IMG/VR virus record: IMGVR_UViG_3300043446_004769
Coordinates: 1-21,899 of that record
Strand: one strand, 5' to 3'
Length of the DNA stretch: 21,899 bases
Source of the DNA: a virus
Position 1 is the first letter of the stretch. The number at the start of each line of letters is the position of its first letter. Below the pieces are notes generated by a model. That model ran no database searches, was not told the origin of the DNA, and worked only from the letters and a program-made list of their open reading frames with translations. This document shows, piece by piece, positions 354-20,999 of the stretch. The position numbers were made by a program, and so were the translations under genes.

Positions 354-384
354 ATGATATCATGCAGTGCAACCTATCTCAAAA
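354..384 (-). promoter_or_regulatory. Motif-A promoter for gene 99-323
   Basis: On the minus strand the conserved core occupies 367-384, with TTGAGA at 377-382, a 17-base spacer, and -10 TATCAT at 354-359 (5 of 6 to TATAAT). Predicted transcription start is near 347. Confidence 0.85.
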
Positions 385-396
385 TTGGGTCGCGCG

Positions 397-509
397 CGGG
401 GCTCTCGGCGCAGGTCGTCTTGGCGAGGCGGAGCCCCGGCTTTCCCGTGGGGCGGTCGGGTCGGGGACTCACGCCTTCCCCTGCCCGTGGGGGTGGGGGC
501 GGGCAGGGG
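397..509. terminator. Two hairpins in spacer 385-540
   Basis: CGGGGCTC (397-404) pairs with GAGCCCCG (431-438); the arms are in reverse order compared with most other boundaries. CCCCTGCCC (478-486) pairs with GGGCAGGGG (501-509). The spacer lies between the minus-strand gene ending at 544 and the promoter at 354-384, so these probably end the transcript of gene 544-714. Confidence 0.5.
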
Positions 510-520
510 TGGCGGAGAAC

Positions 521-537
521 TTGACGGTGGCGGAAGA
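521..537 (+). repeat. Motif-B copy 1 (TTGACGGTGGCGGAAGA)
   Basis: One of nine copies of TTGACGGTGGTGGAAGA-like sequence, all on the plus strand. This one sits 6 bases past the stop of the minus-strand gene 544-714, oriented toward it. At 17-base spacing there is no good -10, so a promoter role is unlikely here. Confidence 0.75.
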
Positions 538-543
538 GACTGC

Positions 544-714
544 CTACGCCTCGCAATCGTGACCGTAGGCGACCTCTTCGGGGTCGGTGAATGTTTGTTC
601 ACACTCAGGGCAGGTGTACGACCATGACTTTCGGGCAGGCTTGGCGAGAATGTCGTCAATCAGTCCCATGACTGTCTTGGTGTAGTTGAGGTAGGTCATT
701 TCGGTGTTTGTCAT
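544..714 (-). CDS. Small putative zinc-binding protein, 56 aa
   Basis: A 56-residue protein whose C-terminal half carries CPEC (residues 35-38) and HDC (52-54), a C-x2-C...H-x-C arrangement suited to one zinc ion. I read it as a small zinc-finger-like protein of unknown role. A longer reading frame runs upstream to 861, but its extra residues translate the promoter itself (-10 TATGAT at 721-726) and part of the next gene. The start chosen, at 714, lies 6 bases after the -10, where transcription should begin, so this mRNA appears leaderless. No SD is visible. Confidence 0.7.
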   Translation of the reverse strand: MTNTEMTYLNYTKTVMGLIDDILAKPARKSWSYTCPECEQTFTDPEEVAYGHDCEA

Positions 715-720
715 GGGATA

Positions 721-751
721 ATCATACCAACACGTGCAACCTATCTCAAAA
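721..751 (-). promoter_or_regulatory. Motif-A promoter for gene 544-714
   Basis: Core at 734-751; TTGAGA at 744-749, 17-base spacer, -10 TATGAT at 721-726. The ATG at 714 starts 6 bases past the -10, predicting a leaderless mRNA. The promoter abuts the stop codon of gene 752-1168, and no boundary hairpin is present. Confidence 0.85.
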
Positions 752-1168
752 CTAGAAGAGTCCCCAATCTTGTCGGTTGTCTTCCGATACTGGCCACAAG
801 ACGGTGGCACTACCCGTAGGTGCGTCGTGGTGGGCGAGGGAGTATTCGATGCGGTCGGCAAAGACTCGGTAGTTCATCGTCCATTCGCCACGGACTGTCA
901 TGCCCCCCAACAAGTCTTGTACCTTGTCAGCGTGGAAGAGTCCACCAACCTCGCCATTCCATAGGCGCAAGTTTTCGACTCGCCACCAACCCGTTTCATT
1001 CGACTCACGAAACTCTTTCGTGACTTCCGCAAAGAACCCAACGGAATCTTCCCAACAATCGCCGTAGCAATAATCGGTGGGGAAAAATTCGTCGGTCTCT
1101 TCGTTGTAGAACGTGCAGGTGCAGGAATTAGTAATTTCGCTAGTTGCAATAGGTGCTTCCGTTTTCAT
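752..1168 (-). CDS. Hypothetical protein, 138 aa, Cys-containing N-terminus
   Basis: I do not recognise this protein. It is acidic and aromatic-rich, with a Cys cluster near the N-terminus (CTC at residues 16-18, CYGDC at 34-38) that could bind metal or form disulfides. No membrane segment or signal peptide is evident. The ATG at 1168 follows the -10 (TACAAT, 1176-1181) by 7 bases, so the transcript is predicted to be leaderless, and no SD is present. Its stop at 752 touches the promoter of the next minus-strand gene, so termination between them is uncertain. Confidence 0.75.
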   Translation of the reverse strand: MKTEAPIATSEITNSCTCTFYNEETDEFFPTDYCYGDCWEDSVGFFAEVTKEFRESNETGWWRVENLRLWNGEVGGLFHADKVQDLLGGMTVRGEWTMNYRVFADRIEYSLAHHDAPTGSATVLWPVSEDNRQDWGLF

Positions 1169-1175
1169 GTCTCTT

Positions 1176-1206
1176 ATTGTATCGCCCCATGCAACCTATC
1201 TCAAAA
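1176..1206 (-). promoter_or_regulatory. Motif-A promoter for gene 752-1168
   Basis: Core at 1190-1206 (ATGCAACC rather than GTGCAACC on the plus strand). TTGAGA at 1199-1204, 17-base spacer, -10 TACAAT at 1176-1181. Predicted start at about 1169, against the ATG at 1168. Confidence 0.85.
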
Positions 1207-1226
1207 GCCGGCTCAGGCCGCCTCGC

Positions 1227-1260
1227 GAGCCCCGCTTCGCTTGTGGGCATGTCGGGGCTC
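1227..1260. terminator. GAGCCCCG hairpin between genes 752-1168 and 1303-1713
   Basis: GAGCCCCG (1227-1234) pairs with CGGGGCTC (1253-1260) around an 18-base loop. It lies downstream of the minus-strand gene ending at 1303 and about 20 bases upstream of the next minus-strand promoter. Confidence 0.5.
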
Positions 1261-1302
1261 CGGGCCGATTGGTTGCCCACCTTTCGGCAGGCAACCTTTC
1301 GG

Positions 1303-1713
1303 TCATTCGGTGGGGAGTGGAAGGTCGAACCCCATTTGCAGGCGCATCATGTCTAGCGTCGCTTGGAGTTCTTCGTTTGCTGTCAGTTCCCTGACCCGTG
1401 TCTGAAAGTTCCCCGTGAGAAACATGGCTGGCACGTCGTGGTTCTCCCCGTCGTAGTTGCCTTGCTTGTCACGGTTCCCGACGATGAGAACATCGCCCAC
1501 AATGAGGCGATTAGTCAGGACTGACGCTATTGCGTTTGCCTTGAGTCCGATGAGTAGTCCCTCGTCGTGAACGTAAACGGTGAAGTCCTCACCATTCACC
1601 GCGTCGATGAGTCCACCGACCGTTTCACGAATGGTCTCGTAGCCCGACCGCTCGTTGGAAAGGTCGATTACCTCAACCTCACCGCTAGTAGTTACTTTGA
1701 CTGCCTTTGGCAT
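1303..1713 (-). CDS. DUF3846-domain protein, 136 aa
   Basis: The central part (about residues 25-80) reads as the DUF3846 pattern: an ETVGGLIDAV segment, a VYVHDEGLLIGLKAN segment, then a GDVLIVGNRD strand. This small alpha/beta domain is widespread in phages and plasmids of Gram-positive bacteria; its biochemical function is unknown. The longer frame to 1761 is rejected because its first 16 residues cover the promoter. The ATG at 1713 has GAAAGGGGCAGAG directly upstream and a predicted leader of about 23 bases. The C-terminal third is mostly helical and belongs to no family I know. Confidence 0.8.
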   Translation of the reverse strand: MPKAVKVTTSGEVEVIDLSNERSGYETIRETVGGLIDAVNGEDFTVYVHDEGLLIGLKANAIASVLTNRLIVGDVLIVGNRDKQGNYDGENHDVPAMFLTGNFQTRVRELTANEELQATLDMMRLQMGFDLPLPTE

Positions 1714-1742
1714 CTCTGCCCCTTTCTGTCTTGGCACTAGGT

Positions 1743-1773
1743 ACTTTATCAGTTCGTGCAACCTATCTCAAAA
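1743..1773 (-). promoter_or_regulatory. Motif-A promoter for gene 1303-1713
   Basis: Core at 1756-1773; TTGAGA at 1766-1771, 17-base spacer, -10 TAAAGT at 1743-1748; predicted start near 1736. Confidence 0.85.
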
Positions 1774-1788
1774 TCGACCCCCGATGCC

Positions 1789-1885
1789 CGGGGCTACGGA
1801 AGATTGCCCCGCAGCTCAAGAGCCCCGCGTCACGCTGAAGTCGGGAAACACCAAACCCCCACCCCGAAAGGGGGGAGGGTGGGGG
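1789..1885. terminator. Two hairpins downstream of gene 1926-2429
   Basis: CGGGGCT (1789-1795) pairs with AGCCCCG (1821-1827), again in reversed arm order. CCCCCACCC (1856-1864) pairs with GGGTGGGGG (1877-1885) around a 12-base loop. Together they separate the minus-strand unit ending at 1926 from the promoter at 1743-1773. Confidence 0.5.
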
Positions 1886-1904
1886 TGGTGGGGGTGCTAG
1901 AACT

Positions 1905-1921
1905 TTGACGGTGGTGGAAGA
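1905..1921 (+). repeat. Motif-B copy 2 (TTGACGGTGGTGGAAGA)
   Basis: Exact consensus copy. It lies 4 bases beyond the stop of minus-strand gene 1926-2429 and points toward that gene, mirroring the placement of copy 1 relative to gene 544-714. Confidence 0.8.
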
Positions 1922-1925
1922 GGAC

Positions 1926-2429
1926 TTAGTACCAGCAGTCCAGACCCTCCGTGTTCAGGGCTGACCAGCGGAGATACCAAATGGCGTAGGCGTACTCCTT
2001 TGTCAGGGAGTTTCCATCTTCGTCTAGGTCGTCTCCGCTGTCATTCAGGGCATCTTCTATTGCGTCGGCTAGAAGGTTGCACTCATGCGGTGACTTGTGA
2101 CTGTTGTCGCCCAATGCGCCATAAAACGAGAGTCCTTCGGTCTCGTCGTAGATACCCAACCGCTCAACGAGGTAGTTGCCGTACTTTCCCCGATACCAGC
2201 AGTCAGTTCCCAACATTCCGTAGACCGCTCCACCAGAAAGACCAGACTTGTCAAAGTCGTTGCGGTAGGGACAGCCTCCAGCGTTGTAGGTCGCCTCGCA
2301 GTCAATGGAAAACATGGGGGAGCCGTCATCGTTTGTCAGTTGGTTGCCGTCTTTGCCCATGCGTGGCGTCATCACGGCAGTTCCCTGCTTCTTGCAAGGG
2401 TAGGCGTGTGGAATGTTGTCAAGACCCAT
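1926..2429 (-). CDS. Conserved-looking hypothetical protein, 167 aa
   Basis: Begins MGLDNIPHAYPC and contains several Cys residues spaced through the first half (YPCKK, DCEATYNAGGCPY) plus a tyrosine- and glycine-rich middle. The C-terminal third is acidic and ends DCWY. I cannot assign a function; the Cys pattern could support metal binding. Its ATG overlaps the stop of the upstream gene (TAATG at 2429), so it should be translationally coupled to gene 2429-2734 and share its promoter. It is the last gene of that two-gene unit and is followed by two hairpins. Confidence 0.75.
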   Translation of the reverse strand: MGLDNIPHAYPCKKQGTAVMTPRMGKDGNQLTNDDGSPMFSIDCEATYNAGGCPYRNDFDKSGLSGGAVYGMLGTDCWYRGKYGNYLVERLGIYDETEGLSFYGALGDNSHKSPHECNLLADAIEDALNDSGDDLDEDGNSLTKEYAYAIWYLRWSALNTEGLDCWY

Positions 2430-2734
2430 TAGAGGTACTCCCCACTCTTGGTCAAGGCTTCTAAAGCCTCTTCGTATGTGCTGAACTCCCCGAACTCGCT
2501 AGCGGTGCAAATGTCCTTAGGGGACTCGGCGTGACGAATGGTGAAACGACGTTCTCCACCCCAAACGCTGTTGTTCTGCTCTGAAGTGATGAAAAACCCT
2601 TCGTGCAGGTCTCCGTGAACAATGCTGTCAAAAAATGACATCGTGGCAGGTGTAAAGAACTTGTAGCCAGCGTCAATGCTCTCGCTCATCAACTGGGCAA
2701 GTTCGTCGGATATTTCTTGTGTTCCTTTTCTCAT
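2429..2734 (-). CDS. Hypothetical protein, 101 aa
   Basis: No family recognised. The N-terminal 20 residues look helical (EISDELAQLMSESI); the rest is mixed and aromatic-rich, ending with a helical FSTYEEALEALTKSGEYL tail. The ATG at 2734 is 7 bases past the -10 hexamer (TAGAGT, 2742-2747), so this is the third predicted leaderless mRNA in the array. It is the first gene of a two-gene unit, with its stop overlapping the start of gene 1926-2429 as TAATG. Confidence 0.75.
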   Translation of the reverse strand: MRKGTQEISDELAQLMSESIDAGYKFFTPATMSFFDSIVHGDLHEGFFITSEQNNSVWGGERRFTIRHAESPKDICTASEFGEFSTYEEALEALTKSGEYL

Positions 2735-2741
2735 GGCAGTA

Positions 2742-2772
2742 ACTCTATCGGTTCGTGCAACCTATCTCAAAA
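2742..2772 (-). promoter_or_regulatory. Motif-A promoter for the 2734-1926 unit
   Basis: Core at 2755-2772; TTGAGA at 2765-2770, 17-base spacer, -10 TAGAGT at 2742-2747. Predicted start at about 2735, immediately before the ATG at 2734. Confidence 0.85.
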
Positions 2773-2794
2773 ATGAGAATGATGGAGCTGACCG

Positions 2795-2828
2795 GAGCCC
2801 CGTCTTGCTCCCTACGGTGCCGGGGCTC
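2795..2828. terminator. GAGCCCCG hairpin downstream of gene 2971-3378
   Basis: GAGCCCCG (2795-2802) pairs with CGGGGCTC (2821-2828). The spacer 2773-2970 also repeats GCGACTTGCTCAGGTCGT-like sequence twice (2850-2868 and 2949-2967), a local direct repeat of unknown meaning. Confidence 0.5.
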
Positions 2829-2970
2829 TGGGAGTGGGGTGAGCCTTTTTGCGACTTGCTCAGGTCGTGGGTATGGGGTCGGTTGGGTCGCCTCTCCCCA
2901 CAAGAGGACAGAATAACCCCGCCAACCGCACGGGGGTGAGCAGTTTAGCGACTTGCTCAGGTCGTAGTCC

Positions 2971-3378
2971 CTAGAGGTACTGAGCGACACCCTTGTAGGT
3001 GTTCGTGCTAACTACTTCGTCTTCGGTCATCTTGAGAATGGCGATGGCGTTGCGGATTTCGTCGCACTCGTTGCGAACGTGATAGGACACGGCTTCGGGT
3101 GCTGTCGGAATCTTGACTGACGGACTCAAGGTGAAAATGAAACTGATTTCGGGAAGTTCCGACCTCCAGCCTCGTTCGTTAAAGTTTGTGTCCTTGAGCG
3201 TCAGGCTCTTTGTTCCGATGAGCGACGGCAAGTTCTTGATGAACTCCTTGCGTTCCTTCTCGTACTTGTCGTGCGCCTTCTCGTAGTCGGAGAGTTCCTT
3301 CTCTCGTTTGGCGAGAGAGGCTTCCAATGCCTTGATGAGTTTGGCGGTACTCACCTTTACCGATAGTGACTTGCTCAT
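2971..3378 (-). CDS. Hypothetical coiled-coil protein, 135 aa
   Basis: Residues about 10-50 form a strongly charged heptad-like helix (LIKALEASLAKREKELSDYEKAHDKYEKERKEF), predicted coiled coil. The rest is a mixed domain with a second helical stretch near the C-terminus (ECDEIRNAIAILKM). No family is recognised; a structural or partner-binding role is plausible but unproven. The ATG at 3378 has GAAAGGGAAAAGG upstream, within a leader carrying the shared CTACTACGAAAGG element, and is driven by the promoter at 3418-3448. Confidence 0.8.
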   Translation of the reverse strand: MSKSLSVKVSTAKLIKALEASLAKREKELSDYEKAHDKYEKERKEFIKNLPSLIGTKSLTLKDTNFNERGWRSELPEISFIFTLSPSVKIPTAPEAVSYHVRNECDEIRNAIAILKMTEDEVVSTNTYKGVAQYL

Positions 3379-3417
3379 GTCCTTTTCCCTTTCGTAGTAG
3401 TTGATTAGGACACTTAG

Positions 3418-3448
3418 ATAGTACCAAGTCGTGCAACCTATCTCAAAA
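3418..3448 (-). promoter_or_regulatory. Motif-A promoter for gene 2971-3378
   Basis: Core at 3431-3448; TTGAGA at 3441-3446, 17-base spacer, -10 TACTAT at 3418-3423. The leader of about 33 bases contains CTACTACGAAAGGG. Confidence 0.85.
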
Positions 3449-3469
3449 GTTCTAAATCACCGCCCGCGC

Positions 3470-3531
3470 GAGCCCCGCTTGGTAATCTCGGTCTATGACC
3501 GATGAACTCTCCGAACGAAGGCAACGGGGCT
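3470..3531. terminator. Long-looped GAGCCCCG hairpin
   Basis: AGCCCCG (3471-3477) can pair with CGGGGCT (3525-3531), but the loop is about 47 bases and encloses the start of a plus-strand ORF at 3495. This suggests the usual boundary hairpin has been opened or re-used. Confidence 0.35.
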
Positions 3532-3677
3532 TCGCAGTCCGGCAAGAGAAACTGGCGGTCATGCTGTCGGAAGTATGGCGAAAGATAGACGACGTGAACG
3601 CCAGCCTGCGACGCTCTCGCCTGCGGTTGGTGGGGCAGGACTCGCCTACCCCACCGTCACCGTCAGACTGCGACTGA
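3495..3677 (+). CDS. Possible small plus-strand gene, 60 aa
   Basis: A basic, helical 60-residue ORF (MTDELSERRQRGFAVRQEKL...) in the spacer between two minus-strand genes, and the only plausible plus-strand gene left of the putative origin. Its amino-acid pattern looks more protein-like than the antisense shadows. A TAATCT hexamer at 3483-3488 lies 6 bases before the ATG, compatible with a leaderless transcript, but there is no recognisable -35 or SD. Its 3' end overlaps the tail of gene 3663-4049 by 15 bases. The opposing frame is also open, so it may be chance. Confidence 0.35.
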   Translation: MTDELSERRQRGFAVRQEKLAVMLSEVWRKIDDVNASLRRSRLRLVGQDSPTPPSPSDCD

Positions 3678-4049
3678 GGCTTCCTCTGCAACGTCGGTGA
3701 CGACGATGCGAGTGTACGGAGTCGGATTGACTACCGCTTCCTCAATGTCGGCAGAAATGTCGCCTGCCTTCAGGGCTTTGTCAAACGCCTTCGGCTCTAC
3801 GGCAGTCTTGGTGACTGCCTCAAACGTGGTAGCGGTGACGAGTCCCTTCAGTTTCTCCACGAGGAAGTTGCGACGGACTGCCGTAATCAGGGCGACTTTC
3901 TTTCCGTCCACGGTCACTTCGTTCACCCCTGCTTCTGCGACGGCTTCCGTCAGGAGTTCCTTAGCGACTGCAACGGCTTTCTCGGCAGACGCCAACGCCT
4001 CAAGAGCGGCAACGTACTGCTTTCCAGCGGTGGAAAGTGCTTTGGTCAT
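3663..4049 (-). CDS. Hypothetical Ala/Val-rich protein, 128 aa
   Basis: An alanine-rich helix (about residues 8-40: GKQYVAALEALASAEKAVA...) is followed by a compact domain with VTVDGKKVALITAVRRNF and TPYTRIVVTDV strands. Similar small proteins occur in actinobacteriophages as far as I recall, but I know no function. The longer frame to 4112 is rejected because it translates the promoter region. The ATG at 4049 has GAAGGGGGTGAAACAC upstream. It is a single-gene cassette under the promoter at 4094-4124. Confidence 0.8.
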   Translation of the reverse strand: MTKALSTAGKQYVAALEALASAEKAVAVAKELLTEAVAEAGVNEVTVDGKKVALITAVRRNFLVEKLKGLVTATTFEAVTKTAVEPKAFDKALKAGDISADIEEAVVNPTPYTRIVVTDVAEEASVAV

Positions 4050-4093
4050 GTGTTTCACCCCCTTCGGTGACTTAGTAGTAGTAGGACGGTTAC

Positions 4094-4124
4094 ATAGTAT
4101 CAAGTCGTGCAACCTGTCTCAAAA
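4094..4124 (-). promoter_or_regulatory. Motif-A promoter (variant) for gene 3663-4049
   Basis: Core at 4107-4124 with one change (GACAGG in place of GATAGG). TTGAGA at 4117-4122, 17-base spacer, -10 TACTAT at 4094-4099. Confidence 0.85.
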
Positions 4125-4146
4125 TCAGAAACACGCCCCCTGCCAT

Positions 4147-4230
4147 GAGCCCCGTTGGGCTTTCCCCGCTCGCGGGGCTCAGCTGGAGATTGGGGGACCG
4201 GAGCCAATTGCGGATATTGGCTCCGGTCCC
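4147..4230. terminator. Two strong hairpins downstream of gene 4310-4576
   Basis: GAGCCCCG (4147-4154) pairs with CGGGGCTC (4173-4180). A perfect 15-bp inverted repeat, GGGACCGGAGCCAAT (4194-4208) with ATTGGCTCCGGTCCC (4216-4230), follows with a 7-base loop. The second is the strongest stem of the left arm and should stop transcription leaving gene 4310-4576. The remainder of the spacer to 4309 shows nothing further. Confidence 0.6.
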
Positions 4231-4309
4231 TTCCAAGTCGCTCGATGGTCAGGGAGAAAGGAAAAAGTACCTGACCGCCTGCGCCTCGGTCTAGAGGGGA
4301 AGACAGGAC

Positions 4310-4576
4310 TCACGCCCTGTCTCTGAACCCCTTCCAAGCCTCGTCTTCGGTCTTGTAGTAGTCACCCTGTTCGGTGTACCAGCCGTCGGGAAGAGCGCAG
4401 ACACGCCACACCACGTAAGGGTGGTAGTTGCCTTCCCAGTGGCAGAGAGCAGTCCAAGAAGCGTATTGCTCCCCGATAATCCGCTCTCCTTCCTTGTTGC
4501 ACCAGATGACCGTTGCCCCATTGGGGAGTTTGGTCCCCAGTGCAAGCACGTCAAATTCGTGGGATGTGATGGACAT
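4310..4576 (-). CDS. Hypothetical protein, 88 aa
   Basis: A small aromatic-rich protein, apparently mostly beta (GTKLPNGATVIWCNKEG, then HPYVVWRVCALPDGWYTEQGDYY), with a short C-terminal helix (TEDEAWKGFRDRA). No family recognised. The ATG at 4576 has GAAAGGAAG upstream in a leader resembling the other cassettes (CTACTACTGAAAGG-like). This is the minus-strand gene nearest the putative origin, and its promoter diverges from that of the ParA-like gene. Confidence 0.75.
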   Translation of the reverse strand: MSITSHEFDVLALGTKLPNGATVIWCNKEGERIIGEQYASWTALCHWEGNYHPYVVWRVCALPDGWYTEQGDYYKTEDEAWKGFRDRA

Positions 4577-4616
4577 CTCTATCTTCCTTTCAGTAGTAGA
4601 CAGTAGAGACGTTTAC

Positions 4617-4647
4617 ATAGTAGCGAGTCGTGCAACCTATCTCAAAA
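4617..4647 (-). promoter_or_regulatory. Motif-A promoter for gene 4310-4576
   Basis: Core at 4630-4647; TTGAGA at 4640-4645, 17-base spacer, -10 TACTAT at 4617-4622. It is the innermost leftward promoter, about 75 bases from the first DnaA box. Confidence 0.85.
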
Positions 4648-4680
4648 CCATGGTTGCTGGATTCTCTGATTTCTGCACGC

Positions 4681-4713
4681 GAGCCCCGGTGGGTCCAGGA
4701 TGACGCGGGGCTC
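4681..4713. terminator. GAGCCCCG hairpin beside the DnaA-box cluster
   Basis: GAGCCCCG (4681-4688) pairs with CGGGGCTC (4706-4713). Here it lies between two divergent promoters, where no transcript should need terminating, which argues for an additional or different role for this hairpin family. Confidence 0.5.
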
Positions 4714-4720
4714 CCGGGAG

Positions 4721-4792
4721 TTATCCACAGGGCTTCATTTTCTCCACAAAGTTATCCACAGGCTGTGGAAAAGTGCGAGGGGTTGTGGATAA
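4721..4792. other. Candidate replication origin: DnaA-box cluster
   Basis: Exact TTATCCACA boxes are at 4721-4729 and 4752-4760 on plus and at 4784-4792 on minus (TGTGGATAA). One-mismatch boxes are at 4740-4748 (TTCTCCACA) and on minus at 4764-4772 (TTTTCCACA). The exact boxes are spaced 31 and 32 bases, close to three helical turns. The cluster sits where gene orientation flips and just before a ParA-like gene. DnaA recognition of TTATCCACA is established; origin function here is inferred. No obvious AT-rich unwinding element adjoins it, and binding by a phage protein of similar specificity is an alternative. Confidence 0.6.
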
Positions 4793-4798
4793 CTTTCT

Positions 4799-4815
4799 TT
4801 GACGGTGGTGGAAGA
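4799..4815 (+). repeat. Motif-B copy 3 (TTGACGGTGGTGGAAGA)
   Basis: Exact consensus copy ending 3 bases before the TTTGAGA of the promoter that drives the ParA-like gene, and 6 bases after the last DnaA box. Confidence 0.8.
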
Positions 4816-4818
4816 CAG

Positions 4819-4848
4819 TTTGAGATAGGTTGCACGGGGGGATATGAT
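4819..4848 (+). promoter_or_regulatory. Motif-A promoter for the ParA-like gene
   Basis: TTTGAGATAGGTTGCACG at 4819-4836; TTGAGA at 4820-4825, 17-base spacer, -10 TATGAT at 4843-4848; predicted start near 4855. First rightward promoter after the DnaA boxes. Confidence 0.85.
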
Positions 4849-4887
4849 GTTCTCGTTCAAAACTACTAACACCTGAAAGGGGTGCGG

Positions 4888-5445
4888 ATGAACAGAGTCC
4901 ATGTTTTCCAGTCAGTAAAGGGCGGGGTGGGTTGTACCACTTCTGCAGTGGGCTTTGCCTGCTGGCTCGCCAACGAGAAGCGTGAGACAGTCACTCTCAT
5001 TGCTCTGAACGACGACGCTATGTCGGTCCTGACAGATAGGAGCCACGTGCGAATCATCGTCGCAGAAGGCTCACAAAAGACCAACTACCGCATTGCGGAA
5101 ATGGCTAATGAGACCCACGGCTACGTCGTCGTGGACGCAGGGACAACCCTTGACCCATTCAACGATGACAACGAGGACTGGGTGCGCCACTTGGTGACGC
5201 AGAACCACTACCTCGCTCTTCGTCGCTCCACGCTCCACAATGACTATGAGAACTACGACGATTTCGTGGCAGTCATGGACAAGGAAGGCTCGCTCTCGGT
5301 CGGGGACTGCAAGATGGTCTTGAGACTTCCGATGTTCTTCTCGGTGCAACGAGACCCAGCCCTCGCTCGCTCCATTGACGCAGGGCTCTTCCCCCGAGAC
5401 TTGGGGCAAGTGAGCCTTTTCCAGCCCGAACAGGTCTCAGCCTGA
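4888..5445 (+). CDS. ParA/MinD-like P-loop protein with altered P-loop, 185 aa
   Basis: The N-terminus has the deviant Walker A pattern of ParA/MinD ATPases, KGGVGCTT at residues 11-18. The signature first Lys (K11) is kept, but the second, phosphate-binding Lys is Cys16. A hydrophobic strand ending in Asp (YVVVDAGTT, D83) matches the Walker A'/switch position. ParA-family proteins bind ATP, dimerise and move plasmid or prophage DNA with a ParB partner. This one is short (the family is usually 200-300 aa) and no ParB is seen, so it may be a degenerate or repurposed member. ATG 4888 is preferred to GTG 4882 because GAAAGGGG (4875-4882) then has correct spacing. It lies next to the DnaA boxes. 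Confidence 0.75.
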   Translation: MNRVHVFQSVKGGVGCTTSAVGFACWLANEKRETVTLIALNDDAMSVLTDRSHVRIIVAEGSQKTNYRIAEMANETHGYVVVDAGTTLDPFNDDNEDWVRHLVTQNHYLALRRSTLHNDYENYDDFVAVMDKEGSLSVGDCKMVLRLPMFFSVQRDPALARSIDAGLFPRDLGQVSLFQPEQVSA

Positions 5446-5451
5446 CAGAAC

Positions 5452-5530
5452 GGGTGGGGGAGTGTGACCCCCACCCTTTCTGCTTTCCAGCAGCTAGAGC
5501 CCCGCGCCGCACCACAGGGGAACGGGGCTC
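5452..5530 (+). terminator. Intrinsic terminator plus GAGCCCCG hairpin
   Basis: GGGTGGGGG (5452-5460), loop of 7, CCCCCACCC (5468-5476), then TTTCT: a good rho-independent terminator just after the ParA-like gene. It is followed by GAGCCCCG (5497-5504) pairing with CGGGGCTC (5523-5530). Confidence 0.7.
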
Positions 5531-5551
5531 TACCGGCACCTTCGGGGCGAA

Positions 5552-5589
5552 GTTTGAGATTTGAGATAGGTTGCACGGGTTGGTAATAT
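5552..5589 (+). promoter_or_regulatory. Motif-A promoter for gene 5627-6097, with partial duplication
   Basis: TTGAGA at 5561-5566, 17-base spacer, -10 TAATAT at 5584-5589. A partial second copy of the motif start (TTTGAGAT at 5553-5560) lies directly upstream, possibly replication slippage or a half operator. Confidence 0.85.
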
Positions 5590-5626
5590 GTATCTCGTTC
5601 CAAACACCTACTACGAAAGGGAACAA

Positions 5627-6097
5627 ATGACCACATTGGAGATAGCCGAGAAGGTTGAGAACGTGATTCACCTTGCGTTCTCAATGAAGGGCGAGGCAGA
5701 AGGTTTTAACCTTGACCGAGCCATGCTCGTCGGTGTTAAGACTGACGGTGACAAGGTTGTAGATATCAACCCTGAAATCGCTAGCCACGGAGACGTTTAT
5801 CAGCTTCTTGACGACGAGGACAACTTTGCAAAGGTTGCGTCGTACAACGTCGTTGGACTCGTCACCTGCGGTTGGGCAGCACCCCTGAATAGCGACGGGG
5901 AACTTGACGGTCCTACGCCTGCGAGTCACCCACAACGTCGTCGTGTCCGTCTCATGGTTTGCGCCAGTCTTGACGGAATGGCAAGCGTTCTCCGCTTCCA
6001 AGACGAGTCGGACAACCCGATTAGCGACGGGGGACAGGCGACAGGACCGCTTGCGGAAGCCTTGCAGGACTTCCTGATTCGGTCGAAGAACCTCTGA
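5627..6097 (+). CDS. Hypothetical protein, 156 aa
   Basis: A mixed alpha/beta protein with hydrophobic strands YNVVGLVTCGWAAPL and RRVRLMVCASLDGMASVLRF and a helical C-terminus. It resembles conserved ORFans seen in actinobacteriophages, as I recall, but no function is known. The in-frame ATG at 5588 lies inside the promoter and is rejected. ATG 5627 follows the standard cassette leader CTACTACGAAAGGGAACAA, which provides the SD. It is a single-gene cassette ended by two hairpins. Confidence 0.8.
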   Translation: MTTLEIAEKVENVIHLAFSMKGEAEGFNLDRAMLVGVKTDGDKVVDINPEIASHGDVYQLLDDEDNFAKVASYNVVGLVTCGWAAPLNSDGELDGPTPASHPQRRRVRLMVCASLDGMASVLRFQDESDNPISDGGQATGPLAEALQDFLIRSKNL

Positions 6098-6106
6098 CGA
6101 GTCGGG

Positions 6107-6187
6107 GTGGGGTAGTTCCCGAAAGGGAACGCCTCACCCCACTTCTTCCGGTAGCCCCGTCAGGGCTTCCCGCACAGCGGGGCTTAC
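6107..6187 (+). terminator. Two hairpins after gene 5627-6097
   Basis: The outer stem GTGGGG (6107-6112) pairs with CCCCAC (6137-6142). The inner stem GTTCCC (6115-6120) pairs with GGGAAC (6125-6130) around a GAAA tetraloop. The GAGCCCC-type hairpin follows: TAGCCCCG (6152-6159) pairs with CGGGGCTTA (6178-6186, one bulge). Confidence 0.6.
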
Positions 6188-6206
6188 CTGGTCCGAAAAT
6201 TCGATT

Positions 6207-6236
6207 TTTGAGATAGGTTGCACGGACCTGTAAAGT
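6207..6236 (+). promoter_or_regulatory. Motif-A promoter for the 6269-7167 unit
   Basis: TTTGAGATAGGTTGCACG at 6207-6224; TTGAGA at 6208-6213, 17-base spacer, -10 TAAAGT at 6231-6236. The leader carries CTACTACGAAATGAAAGG. Confidence 0.85.
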
Positions 6237-6268
6237 GTTATGCAACTACTACGAAATGAAAGGTTGAC

Positions 6269-6730
6269 ATGTCCACACGAAGCATCATCGCCAAAGCCCA
6301 AGGCGACTCATGGGCAGGGCGTTACGCCCATTGGGATGGTTACCCATCTCATCAAGGCGCATCGATTTGGGAAATCGTTCAGCGAGACGGTTGGGAGCAA
6401 GCCTCTAAAACGTTCGTGGATGACCATTTCTACTGGTCAGTCGTGCGCCCGTTGCAGGCAAATGAAGCCCCCGAAGAGAGTCGATGGGAAGTCGTCGCAG
6501 GCTACGGAATTGCAGGAAACACGGAGCAAGCCGACCCCAGCGAGTGGTACACCCCCGAAAACTACAAGGATTCGTGGTGCGAGTTCATCTACGTAATCGC
6601 CAAGGCAGGCCTCATGGTCATTCGAATCTACGACGACAAGATTCTTGGATTCTTCCGCTGGGAAGACCCCGAACCGAATTGGGTGCAGGTCCAAAACACC
6701 CCCGTAGATGAAGAAATGGAAGTGGCGTGA
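6269..6730 (+). CDS. Hypothetical phage-type protein, 153 aa
   Basis: Begins MSTRSIIAKAQGDSWAGRYA, then HWDGYPSHQG. This opening is familiar to me from ORFans of phages of actinobacteria and other hosts, whose function is unknown. The protein is rich in Trp, Tyr and acidic residues, with no membrane segment. The ATG at 6269 follows GAAAGGTTGAC. It is the first of three genes in a unit: its stop overlaps the next start (TGATG at 6728-6732), so coupled translation is expected. Confidence 0.8.
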   Translation: MSTRSIIAKAQGDSWAGRYAHWDGYPSHQGASIWEIVQRDGWEQASKTFVDDHFYWSVVRPLQANEAPEESRWEVVAGYGIAGNTEQADPSEWYTPENYKDSWCEFIYVIAKAGLMVIRIYDDKILGFFRWEDPEPNWVQVQNTPVDEEMEVA

Positions 6731-6948
6731 TGAGAACGATGTCCCCCGAACGGGTCAAGGCAATGAGGGAGAACTTTGTCGGCAAGCGGATTCGACTTGT
6801 CTACACGTCAGACCCCTACACCGACCTAAAGTCAGGCGACGAGGGTGTCATCGACTTCATAGACGATACTGGCACGGTGTTTGCCAATTGGGACAAGGGT
6901 TCGGGTCTCGGCCTTGTCCATGGCGAAGACTCTTGGGAACTTGTGTGA
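6730..6948 (+). CDS. DUF4314-like protein, 72 aa
   Basis: Matches the pattern of DUF4314 as I know it: GKRIRLVYTSDPYTDLKSGDEGVIDFIDDTGTVFANWDKG, then LGLVHGEDSW. In this small beta-rich fold a DP-turn precedes a G-D-x-G-V strand and a W-D-x-G strand. The family is common in phages and mobile elements of Gram-positive bacteria; its function is not established. ATG 6730 overlaps the upstream stop and has GGAAG nearby; a GTG one codon earlier (6727) is a less likely start. Middle gene of a three-gene unit. Confidence 0.8.
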   Translation: MRTMSPERVKAMRENFVGKRIRLVYTSDPYTDLKSGDEGVIDFIDDTGTVFANWDKGSGLGLVHGEDSWELV

Positions 6949-6960
6949 GGGGGTGAAGAA

Positions 6961-7167
6961 ATGGAACAGATTGAACAAGTGGTAATTCCTCTAGACCAAG
7001 CACTAGTTGCAAAGGATTTGGTAGCAGAAATCCTCGAACAAATCGATGAGGTTGAGGAGCTTACGCACTCCCTCCTCCTTGATGTGATGGGCGTGTTGGG
7101 AGTGTCCTTCTACGCAGGTGAAGCAGCCTCTCTGGCGTTCATCGAAGATTTGACCCCTGCTAAGTAG
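6961..7167 (+). CDS. Hypothetical helical protein, 68 aa
   Basis: An acidic, almost entirely helical protein (EQVVIPLDQALVAKDLVAEILEQIDEVEELTHSLL...) with a hydrophobic C-terminal half. It is too polar overall for a clear membrane helix. No family recognised; a dimerising or partner-binding role is possible. The start is supported by GAGGGGGTGAAGAA directly upstream. Last gene of the three-gene unit, followed by two hairpins. Confidence 0.75.
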   Translation: MEQIEQVVIPLDQALVAKDLVAEILEQIDEVEELTHSLLLDVMGVLGVSFYAGEAASLAFIEDLTPAK

Positions 7168-7173
7168 TAGTAG

Positions 7174-7248
7174 CCGGTGAAGTTGGCCGATTTTTCGGCC
7201 TTCTTCATCCGGAAGAGCCCCGTTCGGGGCAGTGACACTGCGGGGCTC
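7174..7248 (+). terminator. Two hairpins after gene 6961-7167
   Basis: GGCCGA (7185-7190) pairs with CGGCC (7196-7200) across a T5 loop, extended by GAAG/CTTC and CCGG/CCGG to span 7174-7212. It is followed immediately by GAGCCCCG (7215-7222) pairing with CGGGGCTC (7241-7248). Confidence 0.6.
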
Positions 7249-7338
7249 CCCTGGCGGGTTCTTTGGGTTTCTCAGAAAATCGATTTTTCTGATGGCACAT
7301 TACGTTTTCGTGTCACACCCCCTTATCACCATGTCAAG

Positions 7339-7355
7339 GTGACGGTGGCGGAAGA
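7339..7355 (+). repeat. Motif-B copy 4 (GTGACGGTGGCGGAAGA)
   Basis: Copy with T-to-G at the first position and GGCGG in place of GGTGG. It ends 5 bases before the TTTGAGA of the next promoter, the same arrangement as copies 3 and 5. Confidence 0.75.
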
Positions 7356-7360
7356 ACGAC

Positions 7361-7390
7361 TTTGAGATAGGTTGCACGCCCCAGTATGCT
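7361..7390 (+). promoter_or_regulatory. Motif-A promoter for the 7418-8573 unit
   Basis: TTTGAGATAGGTTGCACG at 7361-7378; TTGAGA at 7362-7367, 17-base spacer, -10 TATGCT at 7385-7390. The leader carries CTACTACGAAAGGG. Confidence 0.85.
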
Positions 7391-7417
7391 GTCTACAACT
7401 ACTACGAAAGGGTTGTA

Positions 7418-8074
7418 ATGCCGAACTGGACGAATACACGGATGGCTGTTTCTGGAACCGAAGAAGATGTAAAGGACTTCATCTCCAAGATTCTGGTAGA
7501 GGAGAAAGAGGAACTCGTCGGAGCATTTCCGATGATGTCAAAGACGGAAATCAAGATTTTCGAGTCTTTCATTCCATGCCCGAAAGAACTCTTTGAGGTG
7601 ACCTCACCAGTCCGTGAGGAGCAGGCTGACCTCGCTAAGGACATGATGGACAAGTACGGAGCCACCGACTGGTATGCGTGGCAGTACGACAACTGGGGCG
7701 TCAAGTGGGGCGATTGCCACACGTTCGTTGATTCCGAACTGGAACAACTTGGCAACGGTCGTTGGGAGACTGTCTACGTCTACGACTTGCCGTGGGGAAG
7801 TGGTGAAGAGGCTCACCAGAAAATCTCTGCCATGTTCCCGAATCTGCGCTTTGGTTTTGACTACGACGAAGAGGCTGGGTTCTTTGCTGGCTGTCAGGTC
7901 ATGAAGGCTGGAGAGATTCTCTTCTCCGAATTCTTTGAGCCTTGCAACTACGACGTAGAGATGCCAGATGACGCAACGGAAGAGCAGATGAACGCATACT
8001 GGGAAACCCAGTCAGAATGGCGCAACAACAAGATGAGCAACATTGCCGAAGAATCTGACAAGGTGGGGTGGTGA
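7418..8074 (+). CDS. Api92/YubB-like (DUF1281-type) protein, 218 aa
   Basis: The N-terminus MPNWTNTRMAVSG and the internal signature YGATDWYAWQYDNWGVKWG (about residues 80-98) match the Api92/YubB ferredoxin-like family as I recall it. Such proteins are widespread on phages and conjugative plasmids; their molecular role is unknown. The C-terminal part is an acidic alpha/beta region ending in a charged helix. The ATG follows CTACTACGAAAGGGTTGTA. First gene of a three-gene unit whose members overlap by GTGA junctions. Confidence 0.8.
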   Translation: MPNWTNTRMAVSGTEEDVKDFISKILVEEKEELVGAFPMMSKTEIKIFESFIPCPKELFEVTSPVREEQADLAKDMMDKYGATDWYAWQYDNWGVKWGDCHTFVDSELEQLGNGRWETVYVYDLPWGSGEEAHQKISAMFPNLRFGFDYDEEAGFFAGCQVMKAGEILFSEFFEPCNYDVEMPDDATEEQMNAYWETQSEWRNNKMSNIAEESDKVGW

Positions 8075-8331
8075 TAGAGATGCCTCTGAACTTGAGAGAG
8101 ACGACTGCAGACTGGCTTGTCTGCCAGTGCGGAAACGAACCACACAAAGATGGCTTCTACGCTTGCATGAAAGATGGCACTCCAGTGGAACCAGTGTTGG
8201 ATGGACTCTGGGAAGGTAGCCTCTATGTCTGCGCTCAGTGTTATTCCATCTACGACGTAGACACATTCGAAGATACCGGTAAGGCAGTAGAAAGAGCTGT
8301 AAAAATGCTGAATGAAGGAGTTTCGTTGTGA
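8071..8331 (+). CDS. Small putative zinc-ribbon protein, 86 aa
   Basis: CQC (about residues 16-18) and CAQC (about 53-56) could form a four-Cys zinc ribbon; a lone Cys lies between them at YACMKD. No specific family recognised. The GTG at 8071 overlaps the previous stop (GTGA), with AAGG seven bases upstream. An in-frame ATG at 8080 is an alternative start. Middle gene of the 7418-8573 unit, so probably co-expressed with the Api92-like protein. Confidence 0.7.
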   Translation: MIEMPLNLRETTADWLVCQCGNEPHKDGFYACMKDGTPVEPVLDGLWEGSLYVCAQCYSIYDVDTFEDTGKAVERAVKMLNEGVSL

Positions 8332-8573
8332 AGGTCAAGACAGTGATTGAGATGCTCCAGAAACTCAACCCAGACGAAGAAATCATCGTTGATTGGTGGG
8401 AGCGTTCCATGTTCAGTCGTGTATGGGACGAGGACTCCTCTGACTTGCCAAACGAATCTAAGTGGGCAGAGGTCGTCAAAGAGTGGGACGAGTATGAAGA
8501 GAACCACATGACTGAAGAAATCTGGGATTGGGTCCATGATGGTCTTCTCGAAAAGGGCGCATATAACGACTGA
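8328..8573 (+). CDS. Hypothetical acidic protein, 81 aa
   Basis: The opening KVKTVIEMLQKLNPDEEIIVDWW resembles a common small phage/plasmid ORF with a helix followed by a 'D-x-E-I-x-V' strand; no function is known for it. The rest is strongly acidic and Trp-rich. GTG at 8328 overlaps the previous stop (GTGA), with GAAGGAG about 8-14 bases upstream. Its stop abuts the next motif-A promoter, leaving no room for a boundary hairpin. Confidence 0.75.
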   Translation: MKVKTVIEMLQKLNPDEEIIVDWWERSMFSRVWDEDSSDLPNESKWAEVVKEWDEYEENHMTEEIWDWVHDGLLEKGAYND

Positions 8574-8576
8574 CTT

Positions 8577-8606
8577 TTTGAGATAGGTTGCACGACTCTG
8601 TACACT
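8577..8606 (+). promoter_or_regulatory. Motif-A promoter for the 8636-9367 unit
   Basis: TTTGAGATAGGTTGCACG at 8577-8594; TTGAGA at 8578-8583, 17-base spacer, -10 TACACT at 8601-8606. It starts 4 bases past the stop of gene 8328-8573. Confidence 0.85.
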
Positions 8607-8635
8607 GAATTACATCTACTAGGAAAGGGAATCCC

Positions 8636-8800
8636 GTGAAAGAAATCATTGTCAAACTGTCAGTTCCAGACGAACTGGACCCCTACGACGTTCTCAACAA
8701 CATGATTGACGACTTCTACTACAGCAACAAGTCGACAGAGGACTACGGTCCCCATCTCGAAAACATCTTCATTCAGGTTCAGGAGGAAGCGAATGGCTGA
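8636..8800 (+). CDS. Hypothetical small protein, 54 aa
   Basis: A GTG-started acidic protein (VKEIIVKLSVPDELDPYDVLNN...). A short N-terminal strand is followed by a helix and a second strand (NIFIQVQEE). No family recognised. The start follows the cassette leader CTACTAGGAAAGGGAATCCC, which supplies the SD. First gene of a three-gene unit; its 3' end overlaps the next gene by 8 bases and carries that gene's SD (AGGAGGAA). Confidence 0.7.
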   Translation: MKEIIVKLSVPDELDPYDVLNNMIDDFYYSNKSTEDYGPHLENIFIQVQEEANG

Positions 8801-9131
8801 GTCGATAGAAGAGAACATTCAGGAAGTTCTTGACGACCTATTCCATTGCCTCTCATCGGTAGTTCACTATGCAAAAGGCATGATGGATTCGATGCTTTCT
8901 CATTCATACAGTCTCGAGAACCTTGATGGCGACATAGATTTCTGGGAATCTACTGGAGACATTTTGTCGTGCCTTGAGGACTTGAGGGACATGCGACAGA
9001 AAGCACGTGCGGACGTGAGTGAACTTCCCACCACAGAAATGCCAATCATCAGTGGGACAACGTTCAGTCATGACGACGTAGACGTTTGGTCTCACTACTC
9101 AACTGTGAAAATTCGAAGGAGCGACAAGTGA
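8793..9131 (+). CDS. Hypothetical helical protein, 112 aa
   Basis: Mostly helical and acidic (ESIEENIQEVLDDLFHCLSSVVHYAKGMMD..., later CLEDLRDMRQKARADVSEL), with a short mixed C-terminus. No family recognised. ATG 8793 has AGGAGGAAGCGA immediately upstream, the best SD of this unit; the longer open frame from 8706 overlaps gene 8636-8800 and is rejected. Middle gene of the unit. Confidence 0.75.
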   Translation: MAESIEENIQEVLDDLFHCLSSVVHYAKGMMDSMLSHSYSLENLDGDIDFWESTGDILSCLEDLRDMRQKARADVSELPTTEMPIISGTTFSHDDVDVWSHYSTVKIRRSDK

Positions 9132-9367
9132 CGACAAAAATGAGTTTGCAGGAAATTGCCAACATTCTGGAGGAGAACTATTTCGTTCTGGGCGTCACAG
9201 GCTCCGATGCAATTGTCAACATCTACGACGAGATGGATGCTGGGTATTTCGACAACCAGATTGTGGAGTGGGGCATCACAATGTCTGACCTATTCAGGGC
9301 AGTCGCCATCATGCGTCAGTCCTTGACGCGGCGCGGTCTTCTCAGAATGACAAACATTCTTCCCTAG
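9128..9367 (+). CDS. Hypothetical protein, 79 aa
   Basis: Starts by GTGA overlap with the previous stop, with AAGGAG six bases upstream; ATG 9140 is an alternative start. It reads as an alpha/beta protein (MSLQEIANILEENYFVLGVTGSDAIVNIYDEMD...) with a helical end. No family recognised. Last gene of the unit. Read-through of its TAG would continue into a short hydrophobic segment (codons 9434-9484), probably fortuitous. Confidence 0.7.
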   Translation: MTTKMSLQEIANILEENYFVLGVTGSDAIVNIYDEMDAGYFDNQIVEWGITMSDLFRAVAIMRQSLTRRGLLRMTNILP

Positions 9368-9376
9368 TCAGCTCCG

Positions 9377-9409
9377 GAGCCCCGCTGCGCGGGGAGGCCG
9401 GCGGGGCTC
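9377..9409 (+). terminator. GAGCCCCG hairpin after gene 9128-9367
   Basis: GAGCCCCG (9377-9384) pairs with CGGGGCTC (9402-9409); an internal CGCTGCGCGGGG tract may form alternative pairings. Confidence 0.5.
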
Positions 9410-9498
9410 GCCGCCAGAACTGTTGCGTCCGCAATGATTGCGGCCTCAACAATTGCGCTCGCACTCATTGTGTGGCACAAGCGTTAGGCCGACCTAAC

Positions 9499-9515
9499 AT
9501 CACGGTGGTGGAAGA
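9499..9515 (+). repeat. Motif-B copy 5 (ATCACGGTGGTGGAAGA)
   Basis: Copy with a changed 5' end (ATCACGG). It ends 3 bases before the TTTGAGA of the promoter at 9519. Confidence 0.7.
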
Positions 9516-9518
9516 GAC

Positions 9519-9548
9519 TTTGAGATAGATTGCACGACCCGATAGAGT
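9519..9548 (+). promoter_or_regulatory. Motif-A promoter (variant) for gene 9580-10083
   Basis: TTTGAGATAGATTGCACG at 9519-9536 (one change in the spacer). TTGAGA at 9520-9525, 17-base spacer, -10 TAGAGT at 9543-9548, one of the weaker -10s. Confidence 0.8.
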
Positions 9549-9579
9549 GATACTGATACATAGCGAAAGGGGGCACTGA

Positions 9580-10083
9580 GTGCCTAGTACAACAATCACA
9601 ACAGACAGCATCAAGATTGAGATGCGAGATAGGTGGGGGCGAGCCTCTGCCACCCACGGAGACGTTTTCTCCGTTCCGAAGGAAGAGCGTTTTGCTCTGT
9701 CCGAGTACGAGCGAGCAATGCACGTCTTGCTCGTTTGGCATAACGAAGGTTCCAAGGGAAGCCCATTGCGCACTCTCCGTGCATACGGTGTCAATGAGGC
9801 CACGATTGTCGAAGTGGTCTCAGACTGGTGCGACATGAACATCACCGAGGAAGAAGTCGCTGAACTCAAGGCCGAGAAGCGAGCAGACAAGTACGACGCA
9901 TTCATCGACTGGACGAAGGACAAGCTTTTCGAGCAGTACACCACCGAAGCACTGGTCGAAGTGGCCGGATTCTCCTACCCCACCGTTCTCAAGTTTCTCC
10001 AAGACTCTCCGCACTTCCGTAAGGTCAAGAAGGGCATATGGGAAATCCGTGACCCGAAGGCCGACAGAGAGGCTGAGAAGTAG
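9580..10083 (+). CDS. Hypothetical protein with possible C-terminal HTH, 167 aa
   Basis: No family recognised for the whole protein. Residues about 120-150 (LFEQYTTEALVEVAGFSYPTVLKFLQDSPHFRKVKKGIWEI) look like a helix-turn-helix followed by a wing, suggesting DNA binding. The middle is helical and charged (EEEVAELKAEKRADKYDAFIDW). GTG 9580 follows GCGAAAGGGGGCACTGA. It is a single-gene cassette and the last DNA-binding candidate inside the motif-A array, so it is one candidate for the array's regulator, without direct evidence. Confidence 0.75.
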   Translation: MPSTTITTDSIKIEMRDRWGRASATHGDVFSVPKEERFALSEYERAMHVLLVWHNEGSKGSPLRTLRAYGVNEATIVEVVSDWCDMNITEEEVAELKAEKRADKYDAFIDWTKDKLFEQYTTEALVEVAGFSYPTVLKFLQDSPHFRKVKKGIWEIRDPKADREAEK

Positions 10084-10084
10084 T

Positions 10085-10114
10085 TTTGAGATAGGTTGCA
10101 CGTACCTGTATATT
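10085..10114 (+). promoter_or_regulatory. Motif-A promoter for the AAA+/VWA unit
   Basis: TTTGAGATAGGTTGCACG at 10085-10102; TTGAGA at 10086-10091, 17-base spacer, -10 TATATT at 10109-10114. It begins directly after the stop codon of gene 9580-10083 and is the last motif-A copy in the window. Confidence 0.85.
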
Positions 10115-10157: not shown

Positions 10158-10883
10158 ATGACCAACCAATCCACATCCACCCTTCCTGAGTGCTGGCAGG
10201 CACTTGAGGACTGTCTCAACAATGGCATCGACCGTGTCATCCTCTACGGTCCGTCAGGCATCGGTAAGACCTACGCTGGTCTCACCATGGGCAACGTTGA
10301 AGGCGGTGCTTACCGTCTCGTCTGCACCGAGGACATGACCAACTCCGAAGTAACTGGAGCATTCATGCCGAACGAGCGTGGCACGTTCACTTGGAACTAC
10401 GGCTCCGCTGTTAAAGCATGGGAAGGCAACGGTGTTGTCGGCGGTCGACTGATTGTCGATGAAGTCGACAAGGCTGGTGGCGACGTGTTCGCCACTCTGC
10501 TGGCAATGCTTGACTCTGCCGAATCGGCATCGTGGGAGAATCCTGAGAACGGACGCATCCACCGTCCCCGTCAGGGATTCTCTGCAATCATGACAACGAA
10601 CATTGAGAACATGGAAGAACTTCCCACCGCTCTCGCTGACCGTTTCCCGATTCGCATCCGCATCAACACTCCGCATCCGAACGCTCTGCTCCGCTTGTCT
10701 CCCGACTTGCGCAACTACGCAGTGCGCATGGCTGATGCAGGCGAGCGTCGCATCTCTCTGCGAGCATTCCTTGACTTTGACAAACTCCGCAAGGCACTTG
10801 GTGACAAGCGTTCCGCTGAACTCACGTTCGGCAAGCGAGCAGAGTCGATTCTTGACGCAATCGCAGTCGACAAGGTTTCGTGA
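10158..10883 (+). CDS. MoxR-type AAA+ ATPase, 241 aa
   Basis: Walker A GPSGIGKT (residues 31-38), Walker B LIVDE (98-102), a sensor-1-like MTTNIEN and an ALADRF arginine-finger segment mark a AAA+ ATPase of the MoxR type. MoxR ATPases remodel target proteins together with VWA-domain partners; the next gene encodes exactly such a partner and overlaps this one (TGATG). An in-frame GTG at 10140 is rejected because it contains the SD (GAAAGGGG, 10142-10149), whereas ATG 10158 has normal spacing. Expression is from the last motif-A promoter. Target unknown. Confidence 0.88.
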   Translation: MTNQSTSTLPECWQALEDCLNNGIDRVILYGPSGIGKTYAGLTMGNVEGGAYRLVCTEDMTNSEVTGAFMPNERGTFTWNYGSAVKAWEGNGVVGGRLIVDEVDKAGGDVFATLLAMLDSAESASWENPENGRIHRPRQGFSAIMTTNIENMEELPTALADRFPIRIRINTPHPNALLRLSPDLRNYAVRMADAGERRISLRAFLDFDKLRKALGDKRSAELTFGKRAESILDAIAVDKVS

Positions 10884-20893: not shown

Positions 20894-20958
20894 ATTCCCT
20901 CTTGTTTGCTGGTATGAAGATGCGAAGCGTCATGTGAAACCACAATTGCCCCGCGCCG

Positions 20959-20992: not shown

Positions 20993-20999
20993 TTCCAGC

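Follow-up and report, generated by a model that had tools for sequence, protein, structure and literature searches.

The window examined here is the entire IMG/VR virus record IMGVR_UViG_3300043446_004769, a genome fragment of 21,899 bases. Between positions 354 and 10,114 it carries fifteen promoter/operator cassettes, which stand before short gene units, the last of them beginning with an AAA ATPase. A search that allowed up to three mismatches recovered 15 copies of the 18-mer TTTGAGATAGGTTGCACG, 11 of them exact and four (at 366, 1188, 4106 and 9519) with one mismatch, against a chance expectation of 0.02 from shuffled sequence. Eight copies lie on the minus strand (366-4646) and seven on the plus strand (4819-10102), with a divergence point at about 4.65-4.82 kilobases (kb). 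Each 18-mer is followed by six variable nucleotides (N6) and then by TANNNT, the spacer between TTGAGA and TANNNT measures 17 base pairs (bp) in 15/15 cassettes, and a gene lies downstream of every one. A first-pass annotation of this DNA had described the same number, spacing, orientation and association with genes, and our rescan reproduced all of it. The array is real and selected, an operator array embedded in promoters, and it belongs to a family of uncultured actinophages.

Mean pairwise identity across the 15 cassettes reaches 97% for the 18-mer and 64% for the -10 hexamer and falls to 38% for N6 and 27-29% for the flanks; the last value is at chance level, and the cassettes are therefore not duplicated segments. 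The units consist of one to three genes, mostly small and of unknown function. By our own reading of gene starts they comprise about 23 genes up to position 12373, close to the 22 or so proposed at first, and the total would rise if the unit at 10085 continues further. The earlier statement that units have their own leader holds for most genes, whose leaders often contain CTACTACGAAAGGG, and fails for three leaderless ones, in which the ATG comes 6-7 nucleotides past the -10 hexamer (sites 733, 1188 and 2754). Nine perfect hairpins of the form AGCCCCG-N17/18-CGGGGCT lie between units (at 23, 1228, 2796, 4148, 4682, 5498, 6153, 7216 and 9378); their loops are near-constant in length and vary in sequence from unit to unit.

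Motifs of related phages at the same promoter position

Does the 18-mer occur beyond the window? The relatives compared are the best 80 of 135 IMG/VR stretches that encode relatives of the AAA protein, on contigs of up to 170 kb; these loci include pieces of one contig or near-identical phages, and the independent phages are fewer than the loci. They come from uncultured, WhiB-bearing phages and share with the window both the genes near the AAA operon and their order; a ParA-like gene is limited to the window and two relatives. The window 18-mer is absent from the relatives (L021 shares the first half only), and an exact 16-mer is present in 10 IMG/VR contigs as a single copy each, which is chance level. 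The motif search upstream of the same genes that the first-pass annotation had proposed thus gave a divided answer: the 18-mer is literally absent, and a phage-specific equivalent stands in its place. Nearly every relative with enough sequence has a repeated motif of its own, 16-20 nucleotides long, which covers the -35 element and the spacer when aligned on the -10 and lies upstream of TANNNT in most relatives. Examples are TTTTGAGATAGGTCGGGG in L021, AGGTGTAGCATGnCCTAGGCG in L022, TTTGTCGGttagGGGTGGG in G002, ACTTGTtGGGTtgGGTAAG in G004, AACTTGTTAgtCGtcCGTAACG in L036, TTTTGGAAATTTGGTATC in G013, TTTGTAAATCTGATATCgg in G023 and TTGGTATCTGTCCTGcG in L044. Well-covered contigs hold 27-48 copies restricted to one block: 32 in the 160 kb contig of G013, all within 78.9-107.2 kb, 48 within 103-141 kb of the 148 kb contig of G002, and, in the 50 kb contig of G004, 38 that do not extend past the first 36 kb. 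Stray 11-mer copies outside the blocks are almost nil. Gene order and orientation inside the block differ between relatives, in which the array spans more sequence than the window fragment displays.

Do these different motifs precede the same genes? Among 13 relatives, the relative's own motif lies upstream in 91/112 orthologues of window genes that follow the motif, and in 7/164 orthologues of window genes that are not directly after it; counts for G001 are low in this test, probably through poor detection of its motif set. Judged by these upstream sequences, the regulon is conserved and its operator code rewired.

The closest pairs of phages reveal how the code changes. G013 and G023 have 21 orthologous promoter pairs with a median protein identity of 94%; three motif columns differ in 100, 81 and 95% of the pairs, the other core columns in mostly 0-5%, and the flanks in about 45%. 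The same three columns differ between G023 and L059 (11 pairs, 100/100/100%), and three different columns are switched between L036 and L041 (12 pairs, 100/100/92%). Between the window and L021 the first half, TTTGAGATAGGT, is kept and TGCACG is replaced by CGGGG, which yields the L021 variant TTTGAGATAGGTCGGGG; the two motif halves can therefore change separately. Mixed copies, few in number, persist in G013 (those at 97092 and 100970 are two of them). Concerted switching of this kind is the pattern to be expected from selection by one co-evolving reader, and supports it. Together with a different motif at the same position before the same genes, it favors the dedicated regulator of a phage regulon that the first-pass annotation had deduced from spacer conservation, and the comparison across relatives is much stronger evidence for a regulator than that conservation alone. 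In a limited literature search we found no description of concerted promoter-array rewiring among near-identical phages.

No tyrosine or serine integrase was detected in 18 contigs of relatives, with positive controls, and the relatives are therefore likely to be virulent. The host is likely actinobacterial because WhiB is present, a criterion that has been applied before (PMC6802176). Of the stacked moron cassettes suggested at first, the units of one to three genes stand; the array itself is a conserved block of virulent-looking phages without integrase, not a set of prophage morons. Compared with phage records, the whole window gave zero nucleotide matches and the AAA protein matched one other record only, at 31% identity; neither search indicated relatedness to cultured phages such as those of Cluster EC.

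Promoter type and candidate readers

What kind of promoter carries the operator? In most clades a TTG precedes TANNNT at a distance of 17 or 18 bp. TG just before the -10 is a feature of extended -10 promoters, and in several clades that lack a regular TTG it stands one base ahead of the -10 (TGn) in 63-90% of copies; G010 and G001 are exceptions. We infer that the promoters are of the host sigma-A type, with the operator laid over the -35 and spacer. Under the explanation we favor, each cassette would be a sigma-A-like promoter (-35 TTGAGA, 17 bp, -10 TANNNT) in which an asymmetric operator occupies about -36 to -19; a single phage-encoded DNA-binding protein would read the operator at all copies and switch the entire block of units together, and this protein and all of its operators would have co-evolved in each related phage into a private code. 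The array, its fixed geometry, the presence of each phage's own motif before the same genes, the limits of the block and the concerted switching together argue for a dedicated regulator over sigma-A-type promoters, and a phage-encoded DNA-binding regulator, of either sign, is in our judgment probable. We further infer that a protein binds the operator, that it is of phage origin and that it controls timing. As to its sign, we lean slightly towards a repressor, which would shut off early promoters, because promoters without the -35 TTG often gain TGn, as if intrinsic sigma-A strength were kept. A more far-reaching version is offered tentatively: a virulent actinophage family with 15 to about 50 promoters in its regulon and an operator code that may have been rewritten repeatedly in concert, sometimes half-site by half-site, by a candidate regulator with two separately evolving DNA-binding parts, to give each phage a private switch.

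Could the operator be read by an activator? This alternative is nested in the favored explanation and differs in sign: the protein would take over the role of the -35, and the block would be a middle regulon, on the model of T4 MotA with AsiA, or of a WhiB/sigma-4 partner such as the protein with a helicase-associated (HA) domain and a sigma4-like helix-turn-helix (HTH). Like a MotA box, the motif covers the -35 and the upstream spacer, the family conserves WhiB and the sigma4-like HTH protein, and one clade is without a TTG -35. However, TTG is kept at 17/18 bp in most clades and several others gain TGn, so that the promoters look self-sufficient, and motif changes are not matched by changes in the conserved proteins; we regard an activator as a possibility to be entertained rather than expected. 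A host transcription factor or host sigma as reader, with phage differences that mirror host differences, would suit the fact that no phage regulator has been identified and that hosts are unassigned. It appears unlikely to us, since the same three motif positions are changed in almost every copy between phages whose proteins are about 94% identical, and the 18-mer with its -10 occurs in none of the 84,980 bacterial and archaeal species of the genome_contigs collection, a set outside which the host may fall.

The first-pass annotation had named recombination as another cause of motif conservation, and recombination or gene conversion between cassettes could keep a shuffling site alike without any dedicated regulator. 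Short identical repeats are able to recombine, and the block varies in gene order and orientation; yet the flanks are unrelated, N6 varies freely inside the promoter whereas the -10 on its far side is retained, the motif holds a fixed position relative to the -10 in nearly all phages, and the switches are of single bases in the same columns of nearly all copies, all of which makes this very improbable. Hardly more credit goes to a phage sigma factor or single-subunit RNA polymerase that reads the motif as its promoter. Repeated, phage-specific promoters with differences among relatives are the hallmark of T7-type phages, in which the promoter diverges along with the RNA polymerase that reads it, and the motifs here are repeated and differ between relatives. 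Sigma-70 region 2 was found in none of 19 contigs (controls positive), however, and the array does not class as a sigma-factor regulon; a search for a single-subunit RNA polymerase gave no match but was uninformative, with the control genomes silent too, and the TTG-TANNNT distance of 17/18 bp is that of sigma-A promoters. An RNA-guided repressor of the nuclease-dead Cas12/TnpB type, with TTG as its adjacent motif, would account for an asymmetric variable part of 12-16 nucleotides after a constant TTG in most clades, but it is largely refuted, as neither a Cas12f/TnpB domain (19 contigs, with working controls) nor an additional guide-like copy of the motif core was found.

Which protein, then, would be the dedicated regulator? 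Family-wide DNA-binding candidates are the products of 9580-10083 and 13882-14265, WhiB, two ribbon-helix-helix (RHH)-like proteins and a winged-helix protein (20886-21476); most sigma-70 region-4-like HTHs belong to the HA-domain protein and to a terminase-small-subunit-like protein. The product of 9580-10083, modeled with a predicted local distance difference test score of 88 and with weak structural matches only, was rejected for its near-invariant HTH, and that of 13882-14265, which has no match in phage records, for its invariant recognition helix. In phages whose motifs differ, the MerR-like gene next to one block encodes one and the same HTH. An HTH_3 protein is confined to clades with the TCTG-type motif, and its recognition helix is invariant, the single segregating residue being K16D. 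The binding parts of the WhiB and RHH proteins are conserved. Distances of the protein encoded by 14390-14812 gave a partial r of 0.51 with motif distance, where other broadly present families reached at most 0.31 and one family present in few phages had a higher value in one distance comparison; such Mantel-type statistics rest on related genomes and serve for ranking only. The model of this protein is of low confidence and matches no solved structure, and splitting the motif into halves made the distance correlation no clearer.

Several of these results weigh against the favored explanation. The search brought up no protein with DNA-contact residues that follow the motif, the candidates being near-invariant in their recognition parts or missing in some clades, and the product of 14390-14812 fails the closest-pair test and does not resemble a DNA-binding protein. 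The G023 contig is an incomplete genome, as are others of its type, and the regulator may sit in the uncompared part.

Comparison with known phage systems

The nearest description to the window array is that of Cluster EC Microbacterium phages such as Quhwah, in which an asymmetric 18-bp motif of unclear role occurs in 12 copies per genome, in short intergenic regions (PMC7302621). Both motifs are about 18 bp long, asymmetric and oriented upstream of start codons, in lytic actinobacteriophages (here by the lack of integrase in relatives). Cluster EC phages have one shared consensus and encode a sigma factor (PMC7302621), whereas here the sequence is phage-specific, fixed before TANNNT and present in up to 48 copies per block, and no sigma factor was found. 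In Cluster A mycobacteriophages, repeated asymmetric sites and the repressor diverge together (PMC6550527), and one repressor monomer reads the asymmetric site with two DNA-binding domains (PMC9283540). Many copies of a short asymmetric site with a phage-specific consensus are common to these stoperators and to our array, and a two-domain monomeric repressor of this type would fit the two separately changing motif halves. Stoperators, however, lie mostly outside promoters, where their orientation follows transcription and they halt elongation, in temperate phages with an integrase or a partition system, while 15/15 window copies are promoter-embedded before TANNNT and the relatives' contigs are without integrase. 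Cluster O phages such as Corndog also have many short repeats per genome (17 bp, more than 30 copies, denser in the non-structural region; PMC4351075), but those are dyad-symmetric, about one third lie inside genes, few are near promoters, and the sequence is identical in all members.

Promoters of the host type can also have their -35 overlapped or replaced by dispersed asymmetric sites, as with the MotA boxes of T4 and the C1 operators of P1; we are not aware that the full set has been rewired between near-identical phages in either system. The box-over--35 geometry of MotA middle promoters is compatible with that of the cassettes, but TTG is kept here in most clades. A homologue of a MotA- or C1-type regulator was not found, no search having been aimed at the MotA/AsiA families.

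How can a regulator and dozens of its sites change jointly without a broken intermediate? This is an open question in regulatory evolution, for which sister phages with a median protein identity of 94%, about 20 shared promoters and few mixed copies form a natural before/after series, with many further codes in the family. Such private codes could also keep co-infecting relatives from regulating one another's genes.

Neighboring features and other repeats

To the right of the AAA operon the window encodes an ion-channel protein, a WhiB-like protein, a proteasome/HslV-like protein and a metallophosphoesterase. Coordinates are collected in Table 1.

Table 1. Cassettes, candidate proteins and other features of the window
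Feature	Position	Strand	Description
Promoter/operator 1	354-383	-	motif 366-383, -10 TATCAT; drives gene 99-323
Promoter/operator 2	721-750	-	leaderless gene 544-714
Promoter/operator 3	1176-1205	-	leaderless gene 752-1168
Promoter/operator 4	1743-1772	-	gene 1303-1713
Promoter/operator 5	2742-2771	-	leaderless gene 2429-2734 (DUF7447), then 1926-2429
Promoter/operator 6	3418-3447	-	gene 2971-3378
Promoter/operator 7	4094-4123	-	gene 3663-4049
Promoter/operator 8	4617-4646	-	gene 4310-4576
Promoter/operator 9	4819-4848	+	gene 4888-5445 (ParA-like P-loop, weak match)
Promoter/operator 10	5560-5589	+	gene 5627-6097
Promoter/operator 11	6207-6236	+	genes 6269-6730, 6730-6948 (DUF4314), 6961-7167
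Promoter/operator 12	7361-7390	+	genes 7418-8074, 8071-8331, 8328-8573
Promoter/operator 13	8577-8606	+	genes 8636-8800, 8793-9131, 9128-9367
Promoter/operator 14	9519-9548	+	gene 9580-10083
Promoter/operator 15	10085-10114	+	AAA ATPase 10158-10883, downstream protein 10880-12373 (497 amino acids)
Candidate regulator	9580-10083	+	helical N-terminal part, predicted C-terminal winged helix; in 25/25 relatives
Candidate co-factor	13882-14265	-	HA domain and sigma-70 region-4-like HTH; in all relatives compared
Fast-evolving protein beside HA/HTH gene	14390-14812	+	distances track motif distances best; function unknown
Ion-channel protein	12579-12923		phage-borne
WhiB-like protein	18229-18561		phage-borne
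Proteasome/HslV-like protein	18808-19449		phage-borne
Example inter-unit hairpin	1228-1259		AGCCCCG-N17/18-CGGGGCT

All relatives compared also share a second conserved repeat, tgACGGTGG(T/C)GGAAgag, with 122 copies in 14 contigs; in the window it occurs on the plus strand at 524, 1908, 4802, 7342, 9502, 13668, 14832 and 16016. Regardless of local gene direction, 120/122 copies are on the strand of the AAA operon, mostly 1-3 kb apart and in a limited region; it looks like a strand-specific site that would act at the DNA level, in replication, partition or packaging. Further phage-specific repeats of 12-14 nucleotides, among them CTAATAGATAACT, ACTAGATAAGT and AGGTGTAGGTAAGT, number up to about 54 per 20 kb and sit in leaders and intergenic stretches, without a constant position ahead of a -10; they were found in L048-L049, L057-L062, L066-L068, L074-L082, L085-L091, L096-L098 and G011. 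In G002 and G004 (L107-L114, L150-L152), many leaderless genes have AACAGCGA or a similar sequence right after the start codon, as if it were a start-proximal translation signal.

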